Part shown: one piece after another, positions 36,697-44,329 of the stretch
Layout of the letters: each line of letters opens with the position of its first letter
How positions within the stretch are numbered: the first letter of the stretch is position 1
Assembly (NCBI RefSeq): GCF_016735595.1
Contig: NZ_JAERRB010000008.1
Location: forward strand, 186,001 to 250,000
DNA length: 64,000 nt
Direction of reading: 5' to 3'
DNA from: Chryseolinea lacunae
GTDB taxonomy: Bacteria; Bacteroidota; Bacteroidia; Cytophagales; Cyclobacteriaceae
Program-made: the position numbers and the translations under genes
Notes under the pieces: generated by a model
Seen by the model: the letters and a program-made list of their open reading frames with translations, nothing else
Databases searched by the model: none
Told to the model about the DNA's origin: nothing

Positions 36697-36713
36697 CAGA
36701 TCTAATATCGATG

Positions 36714-36757
36714 AAATAAAACAGTACAGCTTCATTGAGGCTGTGCTGTTTTTATTT
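36714..36757 (+). terminator. Intrinsic terminator after leuS
   Basis: Imperfect long stem AAATAAAACAGTACAGC (36714-36730) against GCTGTGCTGTTTTTATTT (36740-36757) with one internal mismatch and a 9-nt loop; U-rich on both strands, so it can also serve the convergent gene ending at 36820. Confidence 0.85.
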
Positions 36758-36819
36758 CTATTCTATGCCAAGCGACACCTTATACTGTTGCTCTGAATAG
36801 GAAGCAATATCATTTGCCC

Positions 36820-37677
36820 TCATTCATAACTGTGCTGATCATAATAATCAATACCCGTTTCCTCAAACCACGTTTCCAAAGTTCTCGACAGCAGTTCTTC
36901 AGACGTAGACGCGATGCCAATGAGAAACTCATCAACGTCTTTTTTCAAATCCTCATCATGTTTCTCATGAGGAGTGCCTTCACTACATTTCCGGCAAAGC
37001 AGGCGCACCGTTGTGGTCCAATTCTGAATCTCGATATCAACGGCTTTACAACGCCCCTCTAAATCTTTATACTGCGATTCACTCAAGACCCTGCACTTGA
37101 GGCTGAACGTTTGATATCGCGACTGCTCAAGATGTTGAAGTTCGTCGAACACCGGATATTTCACCCCGTCCGACATTCTGTATCCGTTGGGAGCACCGTC
37201 GTTAAGTATCATGTCGCGAAACCTATGCTTTGGCGCAAAGCAGGGTATGTTCAGAATGACCGCTCTAGCCGGGCAGATACGTCTGGCCCACACTACTTCG
37301 GCCTTGTTGGATGGATCTATGCGCACAGGGGAATCGCCAACATTACCCGCAGTGTCCTCATCGATCAACTCGTATTTCATACCAAAAAAATTCCAGCACT
37401 GGCGCGCCAGCTTCCAATCTTTCAACATGGTGGCGGCGATGCCTAAATTCCAGTGCGCTCCTGCATTGTCTGACTCGAGAGCAACGGCGCGTTTGTTGTG
37501 ATAATACGACTTATCCCAGGTGTTCTGGTATTTATAGATCAAGCCCAAATTGTAGTGAACGATAGCCCAGTCTTCTTTTTCTGCAAGAATCTTTTCATAC
37601 AACACAATGGCTTCTTCCTGATTGCCCCGATCGCTGGTGGCAAGGGCCTTATCAAAGAGTTTCTGTAGGCTCGGCAT
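36820..37677 (-). CDS. TPR-repeat protein with unknown C-terminal domain
   Basis: A 285-residue soluble protein. Residues about 1-105 contain three TPR units (KALATSDRGNQEEAIVLYEK, WAIVHYNLGLIYKYQNTWDK, AGAHWNLGIAATMLKDWKLA). The rest (about 110-285) is an unrecognised domain with VRIDPSNKAEVVWARRICPA, RFRDMILNDGAPNGYRM and a CRKC pair near residue 230. No signal peptide or membrane helix, so cytoplasmic. TPR indicates a protein-binding role. Composition is more AT-rich than neighbouring housekeeping genes. It stands alone between leuS and a repeat-bearing 1 kb gap. Confidence 0.78.
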   Translation of the reverse strand: MPSLQKLFDKALATSDRGNQEEAIVLYEKILAEKEDWAIVHYNLGLIYKYQNTWDKSYYHNKRAVALESDNAGAHWNLGIAATMLKDWKLARQCWNFFGMKYELIDEDTAGNVGDSPVRIDPSNKAEVVWARRICPARAVILNIPCFAPKHRFRDMILNDGAPNGYRMSDGVKYPVFDELQHLEQSRYQTFSLKCRVLSESQYKDLEGRCKAVDIEIQNWTTTVRLLCRKCSEGTPHEKHDEDLKKDVDEFLIGIASTSEELLSRTLETWFEETGIDYYDQHSYE

Positions 37678-38000
37678 GTGAACCGCAATATATTATCTGT
37701 TCGCCAATCCTGTCAATTACCAAATTATTAATATGAGAAAAACCATTGCTAACGACGTCACCGGTCGTGCCATAGTCTCCGTTTCGGGACTATGGCGTCA
37801 CTTACTGCGCATTCCCTTCAGTTGAACATTACGTTTCAAAGTCACACAGTTCCCTGCGCGGCGACCGATAACGTTGGTAAAAAAGACCTGTTTTTCTAAC
37901 ACAGAAGACTGCCGTATTCACCGATGTCAGCTTGTCAGGCAACACAAAAAAAATGACGCAACACATAAAAAAATAACGGCAAAATGTCCAAGGAAGCAAT

Positions 38001-38399
38001 TGAATGCACGACGTTGCCCATTGAAGCGAGGGCCGTGTTGATTGTAATAATTTCCATTACAATGAAAATAAAATTCGTTTCAATGAATGCTAGGCTGATT
38101 TCAAGGAAAAAAAACCACACTTCAATTGAATGGCATTTTTTTACATGTGGCACAGTAAAAATTACAATTGAAACGGCGGGCGTGTTCACTGAAATATTTT
38201 CCGTTACGGCTGGAATACTTTCCGTTACCATTGCATAATTTCCTTTTACAATGAAAAGAATTTCCGAAACACCAGGTAGATTTTTCCTTTTCATGGTCTG
38301 CCCGAATACTACAACTGATTGCCGCGCCGAGTCAATTGAAAAAAATTCGGCTGCACATGACACGGTGGGATTGTTGCATGCAAATAAATTAATTTTCAA
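38001..38399. repeat. Degenerate 21-bp tandem array, 19 units (possibly a heptad-repeat coding relic)
   Basis: Nineteen consecutive 21-nt units start at 38001, 38022, 38043 and so on to 38379. Most boundaries read (A/T)CAAT|TGAA or a one- to two-base variant. The CAATTG hexamers at 37997, 38123, 38165, 38333 and 38397 are spaced 126, 42, 168 and 64 nt, that is exact multiples of 21 except the last (+1). TTTCCGTTAC-like cores recur at 38198, 38219, 38240 and 38261. Because 21 is a multiple of three, each strand reads as heptads: plus strand EIFSVTA, GILSVTI, VIISITM; minus strand MVTESIP, AVTENIS. The minus frame 37935-38399 has no stop (from TTG); the plus frame from ATG 37984 has one TAA at 38236. 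A coding role is undecided. Confidence 0.75.
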
Positions 38400-38454
38400 T
38401 TGAGACGTAATTCACTATCCCTGCACAGAAACTTTTGTCATGTGTATCCCGAAT

Positions 38455-38487
38455 TATCCCTCTTGTATCCCTCTTGTATCCCTTTTT
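38455..38487. repeat. 11-bp tandem repeat, about three copies
   Basis: TATCCCTCTTG occurs at 38455-38465 and 38466-38476, followed by a diverged third copy TATCCCTTTTT (38477-38487). It lies between the 21-bp array and the 3' end of the NUMOD1 gene. Confidence 0.8.
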
Positions 38488-38695
38488 GTGTTAATTGCGC
38501 GGCGAATTTTCCCAACTGCTTCCCCAAATATCTTCTGTGTTTCGGAAATCAAAATCGTGGAATGGACTTTGAAAATGATGTTTCGATAAGAAACACCGGC
38601 AGGCCCTTCGTTTTTCCACAAGTGAAACGCAGATATTCATTACATCCTTTTTCGCTGACGTTTTGTCATTCGTACGCGTGTGGATTTCCGCAAAA

Positions 38696-40651
38696 TCACT
38701 CCACCAACCTCCACAAAAAACCACCTGCCGATTTCGACTTCCCATTCACCACCGACGATATGCGCCCCAAGCCAATGCCCTCTTCTATAGCCGCTGCGCG
38801 AAGGCTGGGATATTCGCGAACAAACTCGCCTTCAATAGTGTACTTCGCCACCTTCTTGCTCATGCGCTCCACAGCTTCGCGGGTCGAGGCAAAGTGTGCT
38901 TCCACGTCGATTCGTTTGGAGGTGTCGTCATATTTCCAGATGTAGCCGCCGGTTGATTTCAATTTTCCACGGGCCACTTGCGAGATGCTGGTGGCGCTCA
39001 CACCGGTGGCGGCTTCGGCTTTTTTTGTGCTTTCGTAGACGCCTACTTTGCGACCCTTCAGGTCGTATTGTGTAACTTTTTTTGCCTGGTTGGCCGCGGG
39101 TGTTTTGGCCAGCGCGCCGCGATACAGGTTTCCTTTCGTGCGCCACACAAATCCTCCTGCCGAACGCGTAGCCTTGTTCAACACAGTGGATATGCCCCCG
39201 GCGCTCACGCCCACCGCACGGGCCGCGTCGGTCATGCTGGAGTACACGGCAAGTTTTTTTCCTTCGATGGAATACTGAATCACTTCCGTGCCCCCCACGT
39301 CGCTGAGCGTGTAAGCCGAGGGCTTAAATTCCGACAACTTCTTCACTTCTTCGGGCCGGGCTTTTCGCCATATAAATCCGCCTGCCGTTTTGTTTGCACC
39401 AATCACATTTTTTTGAATGTTGGCACTGGTGAGGCCCGAGGCCTTGGCCGCTTCTTCGATGGTGTGATAGGTGTTCAGTCGTTTTCCCTCGGGCGAACAT
39501 TGTGTGACAGGTTTGCCTACGCTATAGTGCTTGAATTCGCCACGGTATGAATCGTTTTCAAATCGCCACACAAATCCGTGCGAAACACGGGTTCGTTTGT
39601 GGGCACAGTCAAGCAGTGTGGCGGCGGTGAATCCTGTTTGCGCCGAGGCTTCGTTTGCACTGTCAAAGCGCGCCACCACCTTTCCCTCAAGGCTATATTG
39701 CACGATCTTTTTCGCCTTGTTCTTGATCTTGTTTTTAAATTCTCCCCGGTAAGGATTGTCGTCATAGCGCCACACATATCCACCCGCGATCCGCGACTTT
39801 CCCAAAGCACACTTGCTGATGGTGCCGGAGTCCAGTCCATTTTTTCTTCCCGCCTCCTTCAAACTTGGATATCGCTTCAGCATCTTGCCGCTCAGCTCAT
39901 ATTGTGTGACGGGCTTTTCGTAGGAGAAGTCGGCGTGTTCGCCTTTGTAGGGATCGCCTTTGAAACGGTATATAAACCCATTCAACTGAACGAGCTTCTT
40001 TGAAGCCACGTCGCGAATGCTGACACGATAGGATTTGTTTGCTTTCGCCGCTTCGGCCACGCTGGCATAGGTCTTCACGATTTTTCCGTCGAGGGCATAC
40101 TTAATAATCGGCCGGGGTGCGTTGGACTCTGACCACGTGAGTTTATCCTTGTCCTTCTTGATGATTCGGCCGGTGCGGGGAATTCTGTTGAGGCGAAGGT
40201 TGTGCGAATACAGCTGTGTGCCGTTCATCAGCACCAGGTTGTCGGCGCGGTTGTTGCAATTGTCGCCATCCTTGTGCACCACCGCCAGTCGTTCGTCTTC
40301 CAGGTTGATTGGTGTCACGAAATAGTGGTATACGAGCCGGTTAACTTTAAACGAATGGCTTGTGCGCTCGTAGCGCAGTTTCACCGACAACTGTTTCGTA
40401 TAGGTTTTGATGTGCTTGTTGTAGTAGAGCGTCACGTTCTGTTTCCGAATGCGTTCTTTCGTAAAATAAAGTTGCCCGCGGGTTGAAAGGATGGGGCGGG
40501 GTGCGGCCCAGATACGTCCGTAGTTCGAGATGCAATAACATCCGTCGAAGCCAGCAATGTCATGCCAGGTTTCGTTCTCCATGCTTTCCAGGGAAAAGTT
40601 CATGAAGGGATATTTAGTATACTCTTCCGGCTTGGGTTTCTTACGATCCAT
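38696..40651 (-). CDS. NUMOD4-HNH endonuclease-like protein with seven NUMOD1 repeats
   Basis: A 651-residue protein (from ATG 40651). NUMOD4 about residues 25-60 (ETWHDIAGFDGCYCISNYGRI). HNH domain about 105-150: VNRLVYHYFVTPINLEDERL then AVVHKDGDNCNNRADNLVLM, with H-x-D-G-D-N-x-x-N-N and N-L as in homing HNH nucleases. Seven NUMOD1 units start near 182, 248, 316, 382, 457, 526 and 600, each of about 48 residues with Q-Y-x-x-x-G-K, a helix-turn-helix-like SxxEAAxxxGxxxxxIxxV and a closing GGFxWR. NUMOD1 units bind DNA in free-standing intron-type endonucleases, usually one to three copies. Frame is open to 40786, but a -7 box at 40752-40745 excludes that start; ATG 40732 and 40582 are alternatives. 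No phage or intron is visible beside it. Confidence 0.85.
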   Translation of the reverse strand: MDRKKPKPEEYTKYPFMNFSLESMENETWHDIAGFDGCYCISNYGRIWAAPRPILSTRGQLYFTKERIRKQNVTLYYNKHIKTYTKQLSVKLRYERTSHSFKVNRLVYHYFVTPINLEDERLAVVHKDGDNCNNRADNLVLMNGTQLYSHNLRLNRIPRTGRIIKKDKDKLTWSESNAPRPIIKYALDGKIVKTYASVAEAAKANKSYRVSIRDVASKKLVQLNGFIYRFKGDPYKGEHADFSYEKPVTQYELSGKMLKRYPSLKEAGRKNGLDSGTISKCALGKSRIAGGYVWRYDDNPYRGEFKNKIKNKAKKIVQYSLEGKVVARFDSANEASAQTGFTAATLLDCAHKRTRVSHGFVWRFENDSYRGEFKHYSVGKPVTQCSPEGKRLNTYHTIEEAAKASGLTSANIQKNVIGANKTAGGFIWRKARPEEVKKLSEFKPSAYTLSDVGGTEVIQYSIEGKKLAVYSSMTDAARAVGVSAGGISTVLNKATRSAGGFVWRTKGNLYRGALAKTPAANQAKKVTQYDLKGRKVGVYESTKKAEAATGVSATSISQVARGKLKSTGGYIWKYDDTSKRIDVEAHFASTREAVERMSKKVAKYTIEGEFVREYPSLRAAAIEEGIGLGRISSVVNGKSKSAGGFLWRLVE

Positions 40652-40744
40652 GATTAAACGTTGACTCGTTTCTGAATACACATCTGTTGAAATGAAGTAA
40701 CCCCGTCGACCTTCAACAGGCGATTCCTTCATTGTCAAAAACTT

Positions 40745-40752
40745 CAAAGATA
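40745..40752 (-). promoter_or_regulatory. -7 promoter box of the NUMOD1/HNH gene
   Basis: TATCTTTG on the minus strand fits TAnnTTTG exactly; no clear TTTG about 19 nt upstream. It rules out the upstream frame start at 40786 and fits starts at 40732 or 40651. Confidence 0.4.
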
Positions 40753-40802
40753 CAAGTATTACTAAACTCCAGAGGGATCGGTGCACGGGTTAATCGCGCA
40801 CC

Positions 40803-42782
40803 CTATCGAATCGAAATGGCTTCCAACACATCTTTTGTTTTATAAATCTTCTGACCTTTAATGACGGTCTCCACCTTGCGGATGTCGCTCATCGTGGTGA
40901 GGGGATTGCCGTCGATGATGATGATGTCGGACGTTTTGCCGGCTTCGAGCGAGCCAAACAGTTTGTCTTTGCCGGCCACCGTGGCCGATTGCAACGTGGC
41001 AATCTTGAGTACGGCAGCGTTCGAGATGCCGGCGCGTGCATAGTTCTCAAGTTCTGTGTGCAACACAAACCCCGGGATGTCGTCGGTGCCGGGCACAATA
41101 GTGACGCCGTTGTCGTGTAGCACCTTCACCATCCTGAGCATGTTCTGAAATGATTTGGCATAGGTTGCTTCCTGGCCTGCCGGAATGTCGAGCGCGCCGC
41201 TGCTGCTGAGTTGACGTTGCATGTCGAGCGGCAACCGGTCGATGACGGCCGCGATGGTGGGCTGTGGTTTGCCGGGGCCAAGCACAAACATGGTTTCAAA
41301 AAAGCTGATGGTGGGGTCGAGCACAATTTTTTTGTCTGCCATTTTTTTGATGAAGGCCTTCACCTCGGCACTGTTGAAGTTGAGGGTGGCGGCATTCTGG
41401 GCCACGGCGTGGAAGCGCACGGGTGTGCGGGTGTCGAGGTCTTTGCCCAGGAAGTTGAGAAAGAACATGTTCATGTGCTGAATCTCGTCATAGCCCGCGT
41501 CAATGGCTTCGGAGGCGAGCATGTGGGCGGGAATGTGGCCACTCACGCGCATGCCGTTTTTGTGTGCCTCGGCGGCGATGGGCTTCACCCACTCGGGCTT
41601 CAGGGAGCTGTAGAGTTTCACTTGCGTGTAGCCCAGACTCTTGTATTTCTTCACGGCGGCAACACCCTCTTCGGCCGAATTGATTTTGGCGCCCGTTGGT
41701 CCGGCATAGGGACCGGCGCCGTCAATGAAACCACACATGGCCTGGATGCGCGGACCCGGCACCAGATCTTCGTCAATTTGTTTTTTCTTTTCCAGCAGCG
41801 ATTCGCCGTTGCCCATGTCGCGCACGTTGGTCACGCCCGTGCCAATTTCCAGCAGGCCGTCTGTGCCTTCGCCATAGTGCACGTGCATGTCCCACAAGCC
41901 GGGCATCACAAATTTGTTTTGCGCGTCCACCACATGGAAGCCCGTGGGCACTGAAATGCTTTTGCCGGCACCCACGCGGGTGATCATGCCGTTCTCGATC
42001 AGCAAGGTGCTGTTGGGTTGGGTTGAGCCGGTCTTCGGATCGAACAGCGTGGCGTGCACCACCGCGATGCCCGTGGTGATTCTGTTCGCCAGCTTTCCTT
42101 CGAGCTCCTTGTAGAAATTCTCCCGGTAAGTATCCTGGATGGCGCGCAGTTCGTCGCTCGTGTTTTCATAGCCCTTGGGCATCACACTAAACCAATCGCT
42201 GGGTATGGCGAAGAACTGATGACGTTCGTCAAGCCACACGTACTGCGGCGTCAGTCCCGTGCCCGACAGCGACACCAGCGTCACTTTCTTGCCATCGCCC
42301 AGTACATGGTCTTTCAACACCGTGAGCTTCTGCCGACCCGACGGCAACAGGGTGAGTGTGTGGTCGGTCGCCGTAAAGAATGCTGCATACGATGTGCCGC
42401 TGTTTATCTTGAGCGGAACATAACTCACGTTCCCGGTCACTTTGCGTTGTTCTTTCTCGGCCGAGTTCTCCCACGAGGCCACACCGTTTTCAAGACGAAA
42501 AGTTTCGAAGACGGGCTTCTTATAGTAGTCTTTTCCCCTGGCATCGATCCAGGTGATGTAGCCCTGGTCGTTGAGGCGATAGCGACTTACCGTGCTGTCG
42601 CCACGGCCGCGGTCGTTGTATTGAAACCATTCGGTGAAAGTGCCGTCGGCGTTTTTCAATTGCTTCTGAAACCCCACCTTGTTGCCTCCCATCATCACGT
42701 TCCATTGCACGGTGTCGGCTTGCGCGGCGGCATGATGATAGAAACACCAGGCCACAACAACGAATAGGGAAAATTTTTTCAT
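40803..42782 (-). CDS. Secreted metal-dependent amidohydrolase
   Basis: A 659-residue exported protein. Signal peptide (MKKFSLFVVVAWCFYHHAAAQ). Residues about 25-230 form a beta-rich N-terminal domain. The amidohydrolase (imidazolonepropionase/prolidase-like) TIM barrel follows: metal site MPGLWDMHVHYGEGTDG, carboxylated-Lys region YTQVKLYSSL, His ligands in GMRVSGHIPAHM and DEIQHMNMFF, and the Asp in VTIVPGTDDIPGF; the composite sandwich closes with GSLEAGKTSDIIIIDGNPL. All metal-binding motifs are present, so hydrolysis of a cyclic amide, peptide or similar bond in the periplasm is likely. The frame extends to 42920, but only ATG 42782 gives a signal peptide. Single-gene unit. Confidence 0.9.
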   Translation of the reverse strand: MKKFSLFVVVAWCFYHHAAAQADTVQWNVMMGGNKVGFQKQLKNADGTFTEWFQYNDRGRGDSTVSRYRLNDQGYITWIDARGKDYYKKPVFETFRLENGVASWENSAEKEQRKVTGNVSYVPLKINSGTSYAAFFTATDHTLTLLPSGRQKLTVLKDHVLGDGKKVTLVSLSGTGLTPQYVWLDERHQFFAIPSDWFSVMPKGYENTSDELRAIQDTYRENFYKELEGKLANRITTGIAVVHATLFDPKTGSTQPNSTLLIENGMITRVGAGKSISVPTGFHVVDAQNKFVMPGLWDMHVHYGEGTDGLLEIGTGVTNVRDMGNGESLLEKKKQIDEDLVPGPRIQAMCGFIDGAGPYAGPTGAKINSAEEGVAAVKKYKSLGYTQVKLYSSLKPEWVKPIAAEAHKNGMRVSGHIPAHMLASEAIDAGYDEIQHMNMFFLNFLGKDLDTRTPVRFHAVAQNAATLNFNSAEVKAFIKKMADKKIVLDPTISFFETMFVLGPGKPQPTIAAVIDRLPLDMQRQLSSSGALDIPAGQEATYAKSFQNMLRMVKVLHDNGVTIVPGTDDIPGFVLHTELENYARAGISNAAVLKIATLQSATVAGKDKLFGSLEAGKTSDIIIIDGNPLTTMSDIRKVETVIKGQKIYKTKDVLEAISIR

Positions 42783-43171
42783 GGGATTTTTCTTTGAAGG
42801 GATAAGATAAGTCCTTCGGTTGAAAAATCCATCGGATGGGTGGACTAGTGTATCAAGTTTCGACACAAACTTTGCCATATGCTGTAAAGTTGGAATTCCT
42901 GCCTGAACTAGGAGCAACAAATGCCAATATTAAAATCATAAAACTTTCCAGATGATGTCTTTGATCCAAGCGAATACGGGTTCACCAGCATGTCGAGCAA
43001 ACCGATAAAACTCATGCGTTTGGATCGTTGAGAAAGGCTACAAAACCTTAACCATCAAACCAGGTGCAACCCTCCTTTTTTTAAGAAAACACAACGTTTA
43101 ATCTTCTTCATGAATCCTTAAATTTGTTCCAAACAAAAACCAAACAATCACCCTCTTCCTGTTTTCCAATC
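42783..43171. other. Divergent intergenic region
   Basis: About 390 bp between the divergent amidohydrolase and Crp/Fnr genes. It holds the -7 box at 43119-43126; no other repeat or gene recognised. Confidence 0.5.
43119..43126 (+). promoter_or_regulatory. -7 promoter box of the Crp/Fnr regulator gene
   Basis: TAAATTTG matches TAnnTTTG, with a GTTTA about 23 nt upstream as a poor -33. It lies 46 nt before ATG 43172 and overlaps the in-frame upstream start at 43124, which is therefore rejected. Confidence 0.45.
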
Positions 43172-43759
43172 ATGACCACGCCCGAACCAGCCGATGCTCT
43201 TCTGAACCACATCCGAAAGTTCATTGCTCTTAGCGACGACGAAGCAACCTTTCTGCTGGACCACGTGCAATTCAAAACCCTGCGCAACAAAGATTTTCTG
43301 CTGAAGGCCGGCGATGTGTGTCACGAAAACTTTTTTATCGTGCAGGGATGTGTGCGCATGTATATGCACATCGACAATGGCACGGAGCAGATCATTCAGT
43401 TTGCCATCGACAACTGGTGGATGACCGACTACATGAGCTTCGACCACCAGAAGCCCGCGCAGTTCAACATCCAGGCCGTGGAGCCCACGCAGGTGGTGGT
43501 GTTTTCGCGAAGCGCTCAGGATGTGGTGTTCGAAAAAATCCCAAGGCTTGAGCGCTACTTTCGTATCATTTTGCAACGGGCCTATTCGGCATCGCTCATG
43601 CGCATTCACTTCATCTATAACCAAACGGGCGAAGCGCGCTATCAACAATTCACCAGGTTGTTTCCTGACTTTGTGCAGCGGGTGCCGCAATATATGCTGG
43701 CGTCCTATTTGGGTTTCACGCCCGAATTTCTCAGCAAGATCAGGGCAAAGAAAGGGTGA
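43172..43759 (+). CDS. Crp/Fnr family transcriptional regulator
   Basis: A 195-residue regulator: cyclic-nucleotide-binding-like beta-roll (about residues 20-115: LLKAGDVCHENFFIVQGCVR, MTDYMSFDHQKPAQFNIQA) and a C-terminal winged-helix segment (ARYQQFTRLFPDFVQRVPQY, MLASYLGFTPEFLSKIRAKK). The cAMP-binding PFGE-x-x-L-x-x-x-x-x-R-x-A signature is absent, as in most Bacteroidota members of this group, so the ligand is unknown. It precedes an AhpD-like gene by 81 nt in the same direction, a common arrangement in this phylum in which the regulator controls a small peroxidase-like enzyme. Confidence 0.92.
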   Translation: MTTPEPADALLNHIRKFIALSDDEATFLLDHVQFKTLRNKDFLLKAGDVCHENFFIVQGCVRMYMHIDNGTEQIIQFAIDNWWMTDYMSFDHQKPAQFNIQAVEPTQVVVFSRSAQDVVFEKIPRLERYFRIILQRAYSASLMRIHFIYNQTGEARYQQFTRLFPDFVQRVPQYMLASYLGFTPEFLSKIRAKKG

Positions 43760-43840
43760 GCTTTCGTTCTTGAACTAGATTAAGTTTTTTCCGGCCCACG
43801 CGGTGTTGCTTTGCTTCACAAAACAAAAACAACACATCTT

Positions 43841-44275
43841 ATGCAAACCAGAATGAAACTCGGTGAAATCGATCCCGAAGCCTACAAAGCTATGTCTGCA
43901 CTTGAAAAATACCTGGGCAGCACGGGCCTCAACGCCAAACACCGCGAGCTGATCAAGATCCGCGCATCCCAACTTAACGGTTGCGCCTATTGCGTGGACC
44001 TGCACACCAAAGATGCCCGCAAGGCCGGCGAAACCGAACAACGCCTCTATGCCCTCACCGTGTGGCGCGAAACTCCCTTCTTCACCGATGAGGAACGCGC
44101 CATCCTGGCCCTCACCGAAGAAGCAACGTTTATTGCCGACCGTGTGTCGGACGCCACCTATAGTCAAGCCGTGACCGTGCTCGGCGAGAAATATACAGCC
44201 CAGGTGCTCATGGCCATCATCACCATCAACGCCTGGAACCGCATTGGCGTGGCCACCAACATGATGCCCCAATAA
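43841..44275 (+). CDS. Carboxymuconolactone decarboxylase/AhpD-like protein
   Basis: A 144-residue all-helical protein of the CMD/AhpD family. The redox motif is SQLNGCAYCVDLHTKDARKAG (CxxC followed by H), the site that gives AhpD its alkylhydroperoxidase activity; the flanking helices HRELIKIRAS and FFTDEERAILALTEEAT fit. Thus a peroxidase-like role is more likely than muconolactone decarboxylation. Cytoplasmic. ATG 43841 chosen because MQTRMKLGEIDPEAY is the usual family beginning; the frame upstream to 43811 is short and untypical. Probably controlled by the Crp/Fnr regulator directly upstream. A terminator follows. Confidence 0.92.
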   Translation: MQTRMKLGEIDPEAYKAMSALEKYLGSTGLNAKHRELIKIRASQLNGCAYCVDLHTKDARKAGETEQRLYALTVWRETPFFTDEERAILALTEEATFIADRVSDATYSQAVTVLGEKYTAQVLMAIITINAWNRIGVATNMMPQ

Positions 44276-44329
44276 CATCGCCCTTCAGCGCACCTTCAAT
44301 GAAGAAGCGTGCGGACGATCATTTAAAAT

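Follow-up and report, generated by a model that had tools for sequence, protein, structure and literature searches.

Analyzing the window (the whole 64,000-nucleotide stretch, G000:C28:186001-250000, of a 7.9-Mb genome), we found by autocorrelation and unit alignment a degenerate 21-bp array of 19 units at 38001-38399, assigned to neither strand, with consensus TGAAAGAATTTCCGTTTCAAT and junction palindrome TTTCAATTGAAA. We tentatively put forward that this array could well be an orphaned and decayed member of a class of modules, each combining the gene of a small helical-bundle protein with a phased, dyad-symmetric DNA array on which a dimeric protein would dock. It is conceivable, and we propose it with reserve, that such two-part modules extend over several bacterial phyla and comprise at least three unrelated-looking helical families, each with its own private, fast-evolving phased dyad array, a chromosomal satellite whose partner would keep pace with it.

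The original prediction of a 21-bp tandem periodicity at 38001-38399, in nineteen units with a one-base offset, is borne out. Over 37980-38421, identity at lag 21 was 0.416 versus 0.262 in 500 dinucleotide shuffles (z 6.8), and none of the 500 shuffles attained the observed autocorrelation maximum. The signal recurs at lags 42, 63, 84, 105, and 126 (z 5.7, 4.8, 4.6, 3.7, and 3.4), and these harmonics, together with the shuffles, indicate that the 21-bp phase is kept across about 19 window units, interrupted by a lone 1-base slip. A weaker in-phase signal reaches beyond the array to about 37951-38475. The units have a mean identity of 0.57 to the consensus, and TTTCAATTGAAA forms a 12-bp palindrome at their junctions. 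Tandem Repeats Finder, which had been proposed as a further check, detected the repeat but returned two units only, since the window copies are too diverged.

The reading frames described in the prediction are there as well: one minus frame is without stops across the array, and a single stop interrupts the best plus frame. Both follow from the unit length being divisible by three, so that the stop-free frame is no evidence of coding. The idea of a decaying coding repeat of 7-residue heptads draws on this minus frame and on the 21-nt periodicity typical of coiled-coil genes, as seen in L175 and L170, but it is contradicted by related arrays with stops in all six frames (C9 and C25), by the existence of 22-bp arrays, and by the lack of any Pfam match. 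No open frame runs across the array and is kept between copies, the registers of the open frames differing from copy to copy, and heptads would leave the dyad symmetry unexplained. We therefore reject this explanation as highly improbable. Coding heptads can nevertheless mimic such arrays: in L175 (7716-8584), a pair of coiled-coil paralogues shows strong 21-nt periodicity.

Two further places in the same genome, C9 and C12, match the window array and its flanks. Both are 21-bp arrays directly upstream of a gene for a protein of ~205 amino acids (aa) with a fibronectin type III (fnIII) domain, and both have one unit sequence in common with the window array. In sequence comparison, the left flank (37917-37975, plus strand; GATGTCAGC..TGTCAG..AAAAAAAATGACG) is conserved and common to the C9 and C12 arrays, a stretch within the array (38249-38300, plus strand) aligns over 52 bp with C9 array positions G000:C9:45459-45510 (minus strand) at 83% identity, and the right flank (38392-38686, plus strand) holds blocks at 38392-38455, 38485-38584, and 38635-38686 that are collinear with the C9 stretch from array to fnIII gene. 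On this homology, we take the window array and the C9 array to be of common descent. The homology ends at 38686, about 80 bp short of the expected start of the fnIII gene, and at the expected place of that gene lies a homing-endonuclease-like NUMOD4/HNH_3/multiple NUMOD1 gene (38696-40786, minus strand), whose stop codon lies about 10 bp beyond 38686. A tblastn search found no fnIII family gene in the window, which has the array half of the 205-aa module and lacks the gene half. The window array is thus best read, from its sequence relationships, as an orphan relic, in which array and flanks would derive from a C9-like module, the gene having been lost and the sites decaying.

Further features surround the array. 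The NUMOD gene product begins with NUMOD4/HNH_3 and continues in a long row of NUMOD1-type repeats, unusually many NUMOD repeats for a homing endonuclease. On the other side, a TPR-repeat protein gene (36820-37677, minus strand), which lies outside the three array-linked families, has its start some 320 bp to the left of the array, and a role for this gene is conceivable. Between this gene and the array, an inverted repeat (GCCATAGTC..GACTATGGC) forms a hairpin at 37764-37810. The array is missing at the syntenic places of G001 and G002, where the next block has the opposite order: compared with these genomes, the block from an amidohydrolase gene (40803-42920) to 44250 is inverted beside leuS (window about 36700-44300), and the inversion breakpoint holds the TPR gene, the window array, and the NUMOD gene. 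A first DNA search with the array in 59 relatives gave chance-level matches only, as arrays do not have a common sequence, and the match L003 (C3:222257) was set aside as an A-rich chance match.

The pairing of gene and array was traced through the 205-aa family. Its gene is present in five copies in the window's genome and six in G001, and an automatic scan found period-21 arrays at 10 of these 11 copies, the eleventh having a 42-bp alternation. A scan of 84,980 genomes added 62 family loci. Among the 69 loci with enough upstream DNA, which span Bacteroidota, Verrucomicrobia, Planctomycetes, and Methylococcales, 57 have an upstream 21- or 22-bp array (z≥4.8), counted as such within about 1.3 kb of the gene, and most of the other 12 show weaker 21-bp signals. 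An independent profile search of 296 genomes across the phylum gave the same picture, with an upstream 21-bp array (z 4.5-8.0) at all eight newly found family genes, which are complete or almost so. Genes of the same sample that match the fnIII domain alone have no array (0/14), ruling out this domain as the determinant. All comparisons used one genome per species.

In an AlphaFold2 model of the L076 homologue (pLDDT 92), the ~205-aa protein has a helical bundle at its N-terminus and an fnIII domain at its C-terminus; the helical domain was also modeled alone (pLDDT 93). In Pfam, the protein has weak fnIII matches only, below the cut-off. The N-terminal domain is not basic, with a net charge near zero, and a fold search with it matched no DNA-binding fold; matches to talin, the vinculin tail, and DGR Avd are helical bundles at noise level for folds of this type and were not used. 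Besides the fnIII gene, no gene is conserved across the loci. The idea that an HTH regulator is conserved next to arrays in general was discarded, as an HTH neighbor is kept in Sphingobacterium only. Nine loci have a phrog_1501-like gene 3' of the fnIII gene (e.g., L096 6621-7067 and other Sphingobacterium; L054 8521-8949), whose HIGNN..DTxGC motif is reminiscent of L,D-transpeptidases. At L125 (3226-4050), the array lies 3' of the fnIII gene, ahead of a HigBA-like gene pair, and at L136 (351-850), a 21-bp array is flanked by an HTH-like gene and by a restriction-modification-like gene of 965 aa, a long way from where the family gene matches.

Arrays also occur beside other genes. Many arrays in the window's genus carry at their outer edge a tandem 18-bp palindrome, CCRACGATATTTCGTCGG twice, for instance at L054 6887-6920, L055 7874-7906, L056 6942-6982, L062 8642-8677, L063 4827-4867, and L073 5882. 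The pair is absent from a random sample; at three other pairs (G000:C1:1453034, C5:180840, and C27:69728), no 21/22-bp array was detected. Searching with CCRACGATATTTCGTCGG led to arrays beside genes of a ~240-aa helical family and, via L254, of a 160-aa helical family, "helical" being an AlphaFold2 prediction for the 205-aa family only and a judgment from sequence for these two. The array lies downstream of the gene at 22 of 28 loci of the 160-aa family, beginning a median of 106 bp past the stop codon, and among seven phylum-sample loci of the ~240-aa family it is upstream at three and downstream at two. The 160-aa family has no consistent match in Pfam or NCBIfam, and two 240-aa proteins scanned against Pfam gave none above the cut-off. 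As background, 4 of 320 random 1500-bp windows showed an array-like signal. In a random sample of 800 kb, drawn from two genomes and the basis for genome-wide array counts, the 21-bp signals were coding coiled coils, TPR repeats, and one short low-complexity stretch.

Across loci, spacing and symmetry are constant and sequence is free. The 71 periodic segments have periods of 21 (61 segments), 22 (four), or 33-39 (six), with none at 20 or 23, in agreement with a spacing of two B-DNA turns. Phased A-tract bending was rejected, since there is no 10-11-bp signal and G+C-rich arrays exist. Nearly every locus has a unit sequence of its own. Sphingobacterium orthologues have helical domains that are 78-98% identical, also in pairs with unrelated array sequences; L096/L098 and L101/L103, the most similar pairs, have a unit in common, and otherwise the arrays hold spacing and symmetry with wholly changed sequence. 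The consensus is dyad symmetric in 46 of 62 fnIII-family arrays (p<0.05 versus column permutation; mean z 3.0) and in 15 of 22 arrays of the 160-aa family; about a quarter of arrays, including the 240-aa-family arrays examined, are without significant symmetry. In L254 (7239-7700), units (GGATATAAAAGATGCG) occur in both orientations within one 21-bp lattice, and dyad symmetry could in part reflect asymmetric units placed both ways round instead of truly symmetric sites. Mean autocorrelation is higher at 42 than at 21, suggesting that arrays often grow by unit pairs, and higher-order multi-unit repeats of 42 and 63 bp are found within them.

Higher-order repeats and locus-private sequence are also what slippage yields, and the window copy is decayed; the arrays might then be functionless, slippage-grown repeats tolerated beside these genes. 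We consider this improbable, because neutral repeats would not be expected to keep 21/22 bp and dyad symmetry across phyla, beside the same families and on the same side, and because the arrays are absent from the 800-kb random sample. "Minisatellite," one of three ideas in the original prediction, is apt only as a description of form. A different view would take the arrays as tracks of mobile or repeat-making machinery (recombination sites or template-switching hot spots) with the genes as passengers. The scattered, sparse distribution across phyla would suit it, as would the 42- and 63-bp repeats, the two unit orientations in L254, the edge tandem palindrome in one genus, and the position of the window copy at the edge of a block inverted versus relatives. 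This is unlikely, however, given that no recombinase or transposase is conserved beside the arrays, that no such arrays were found in phages, plasmids, or viral contigs, and that the gene side is mostly fixed in the two best-sampled families. An origin of the arrays from phages or plasmids was rejected for want of matches in phage, plasmid, and viral collections.

Whether the arrays act as DNA or as RNA bears directly on the preferred reading as docking arrays. Transcription of an array into a hairpin chain or repeat-length RNAs that bind the paired protein, in the manner of type III toxin-antitoxin systems, would agree with the gene-array pairing and with the inverted-repeat units, and in array C3 adjacent units can be matched visually as long stems containing G-T wobbles. 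However, the two arms of a unit covary no more than arms taken from units far apart (pooled z 0.65 and -1.1), so compensatory changes within units are absent, and there is no G-U over A-C bias between strands (1225 versus 1304), in line with sites that are recognized in double-stranded DNA. In addition, Sphingobacterium loci have a conserved Bacteroidota-type promoter-like block (TTTCATTTTG..TATGTTTG) between array and gene, and in the 160-aa family a terminator-like hairpin occurs at most 130 nt past the stop codon at 13 of 21 loci, versus 3% in shuffles, in most cases preceding the array. Where this can be judged, array DNA therefore lies outside the transcript, 5' of the promoter or 3' of the terminator, on either gene side. 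With no Rfam match either, an RNA partner appears quite unlikely, and the covariation and G-U tests reject an RNA hairpin array as the best explanation.

Among the three original ideas, a tandem protein-binding array is therefore the best supported, by its two-turn units, dyad symmetry, lack of RNA-type covariation, and position outside the transcription unit where judgeable. For the putative binder, only their association with the arrays marks the paired helical proteins as candidates. We envisage a module made of a helical-bundle-protein gene and 10-25 tandem, two-fold symmetric 21-bp (sometimes 22-bp) sites outside the transcription unit. A dimeric DNA-binding protein, putatively the helical protein itself, would sit on each unit on the same helix face, since sites two helical turns apart allow a dimer to occupy the same face at every unit. 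Occupancy of all units would build a cooperative nucleoprotein filament beside the gene, presumably for the control or maintenance of that gene. Tandem duplication of one, two, or three units would spread and renew the private unit sequence, so that a protein reading this sequence must change along with its array; comparable co-change is known from rapidly evolving operator or centromere arrays. For the window itself, the strong decay of the array and the missing family gene speak against docking. Other points against it are the near-zero net charge of the N-terminal domain of the fnIII protein, its lack of a DNA-binding fold match, its high identity between Sphingobacterium species whose arrays differ, and the arrays that lack significant symmetry.

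Constant spacing and symmetry over phyla with free sequence point to a structural rule, one two-fold symmetric site per two helical turns, instead of a conserved motif, which means that motif-based searches miss these arrays. Consistent with the prediction that no named feature has this form, the array class has no match in Pfam, NCBIfam, PHROGs, PADLOC, Rfam, or the open-access literature, and we provisionally regard it as undescribed, our literature coverage being mostly open-access. Broad literature searches on arrays of this type brought up nothing of relevance, nor did one on the neighboring gene. The rule can serve as a simple finder of many more loci and gives context to families unnamed in Pfam and NCBIfam. 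If each array indeed has a private reader, these modules would offer a model in bacteria for fast-evolving satellite DNA and the proteins that bind it, and the array-gene pairing is directly testable in culturable Sphingobacterium and Lacibacter.

Several known systems resemble these arrays in part. Bacterial minisatellites and VNTRs are likewise tandem repeats with higher-order structure, whereas here the unit is fixed at 21/22 bp, dyad symmetric across phyla, free in sequence, and coupled to three gene families. Iterons of plasmid replication origins are tandem repeats about two helical turns apart and so are alike in spacing; the arrays described here have no conserved initiator gene nearby, occur in several copies per chromosome, and consist of far more degenerate units. 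CRISPR arrays are also regular arrays beside genes, but the present units run head to tail without spacers, with no conserved cas neighbors and no Rfam CRISPR match. In type III toxin-antitoxin systems such as toxIN, a repeat array directly precedes a small gene, an upstream promoter transcribes the repeats, and a terminator precedes the toxin gene (PMC8860590). In contrast, our promoter-like block lies 3' of the array (Sphingobacterium) or the array lies 3' of the gene (160-aa family), the units are 21/22-bp dyads, and neither the 205-aa nor the 160-aa proteins matched a ToxN/CptN/TenpN-like endoribonuclease in Pfam. Plasmid partition centromere arrays (parC/ParR, tubC/TubR, and parS of pSM19035 with omega) share short tandem repeats beside a small-protein gene. 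They differ in that the present arrays are chromosomal, with none in the plasmid collection, lie on either gene side, and have no conserved NTPase or motor gene alongside, and in Pfam none of the known centromere-binding families matches the paired helical proteins. By analogy, these centromeres nonetheless appear closest in working principle, being arrays that are bound cooperatively, as in parS of pSM19035, where a helix of omega protein wraps the DNA (PMC5016525).
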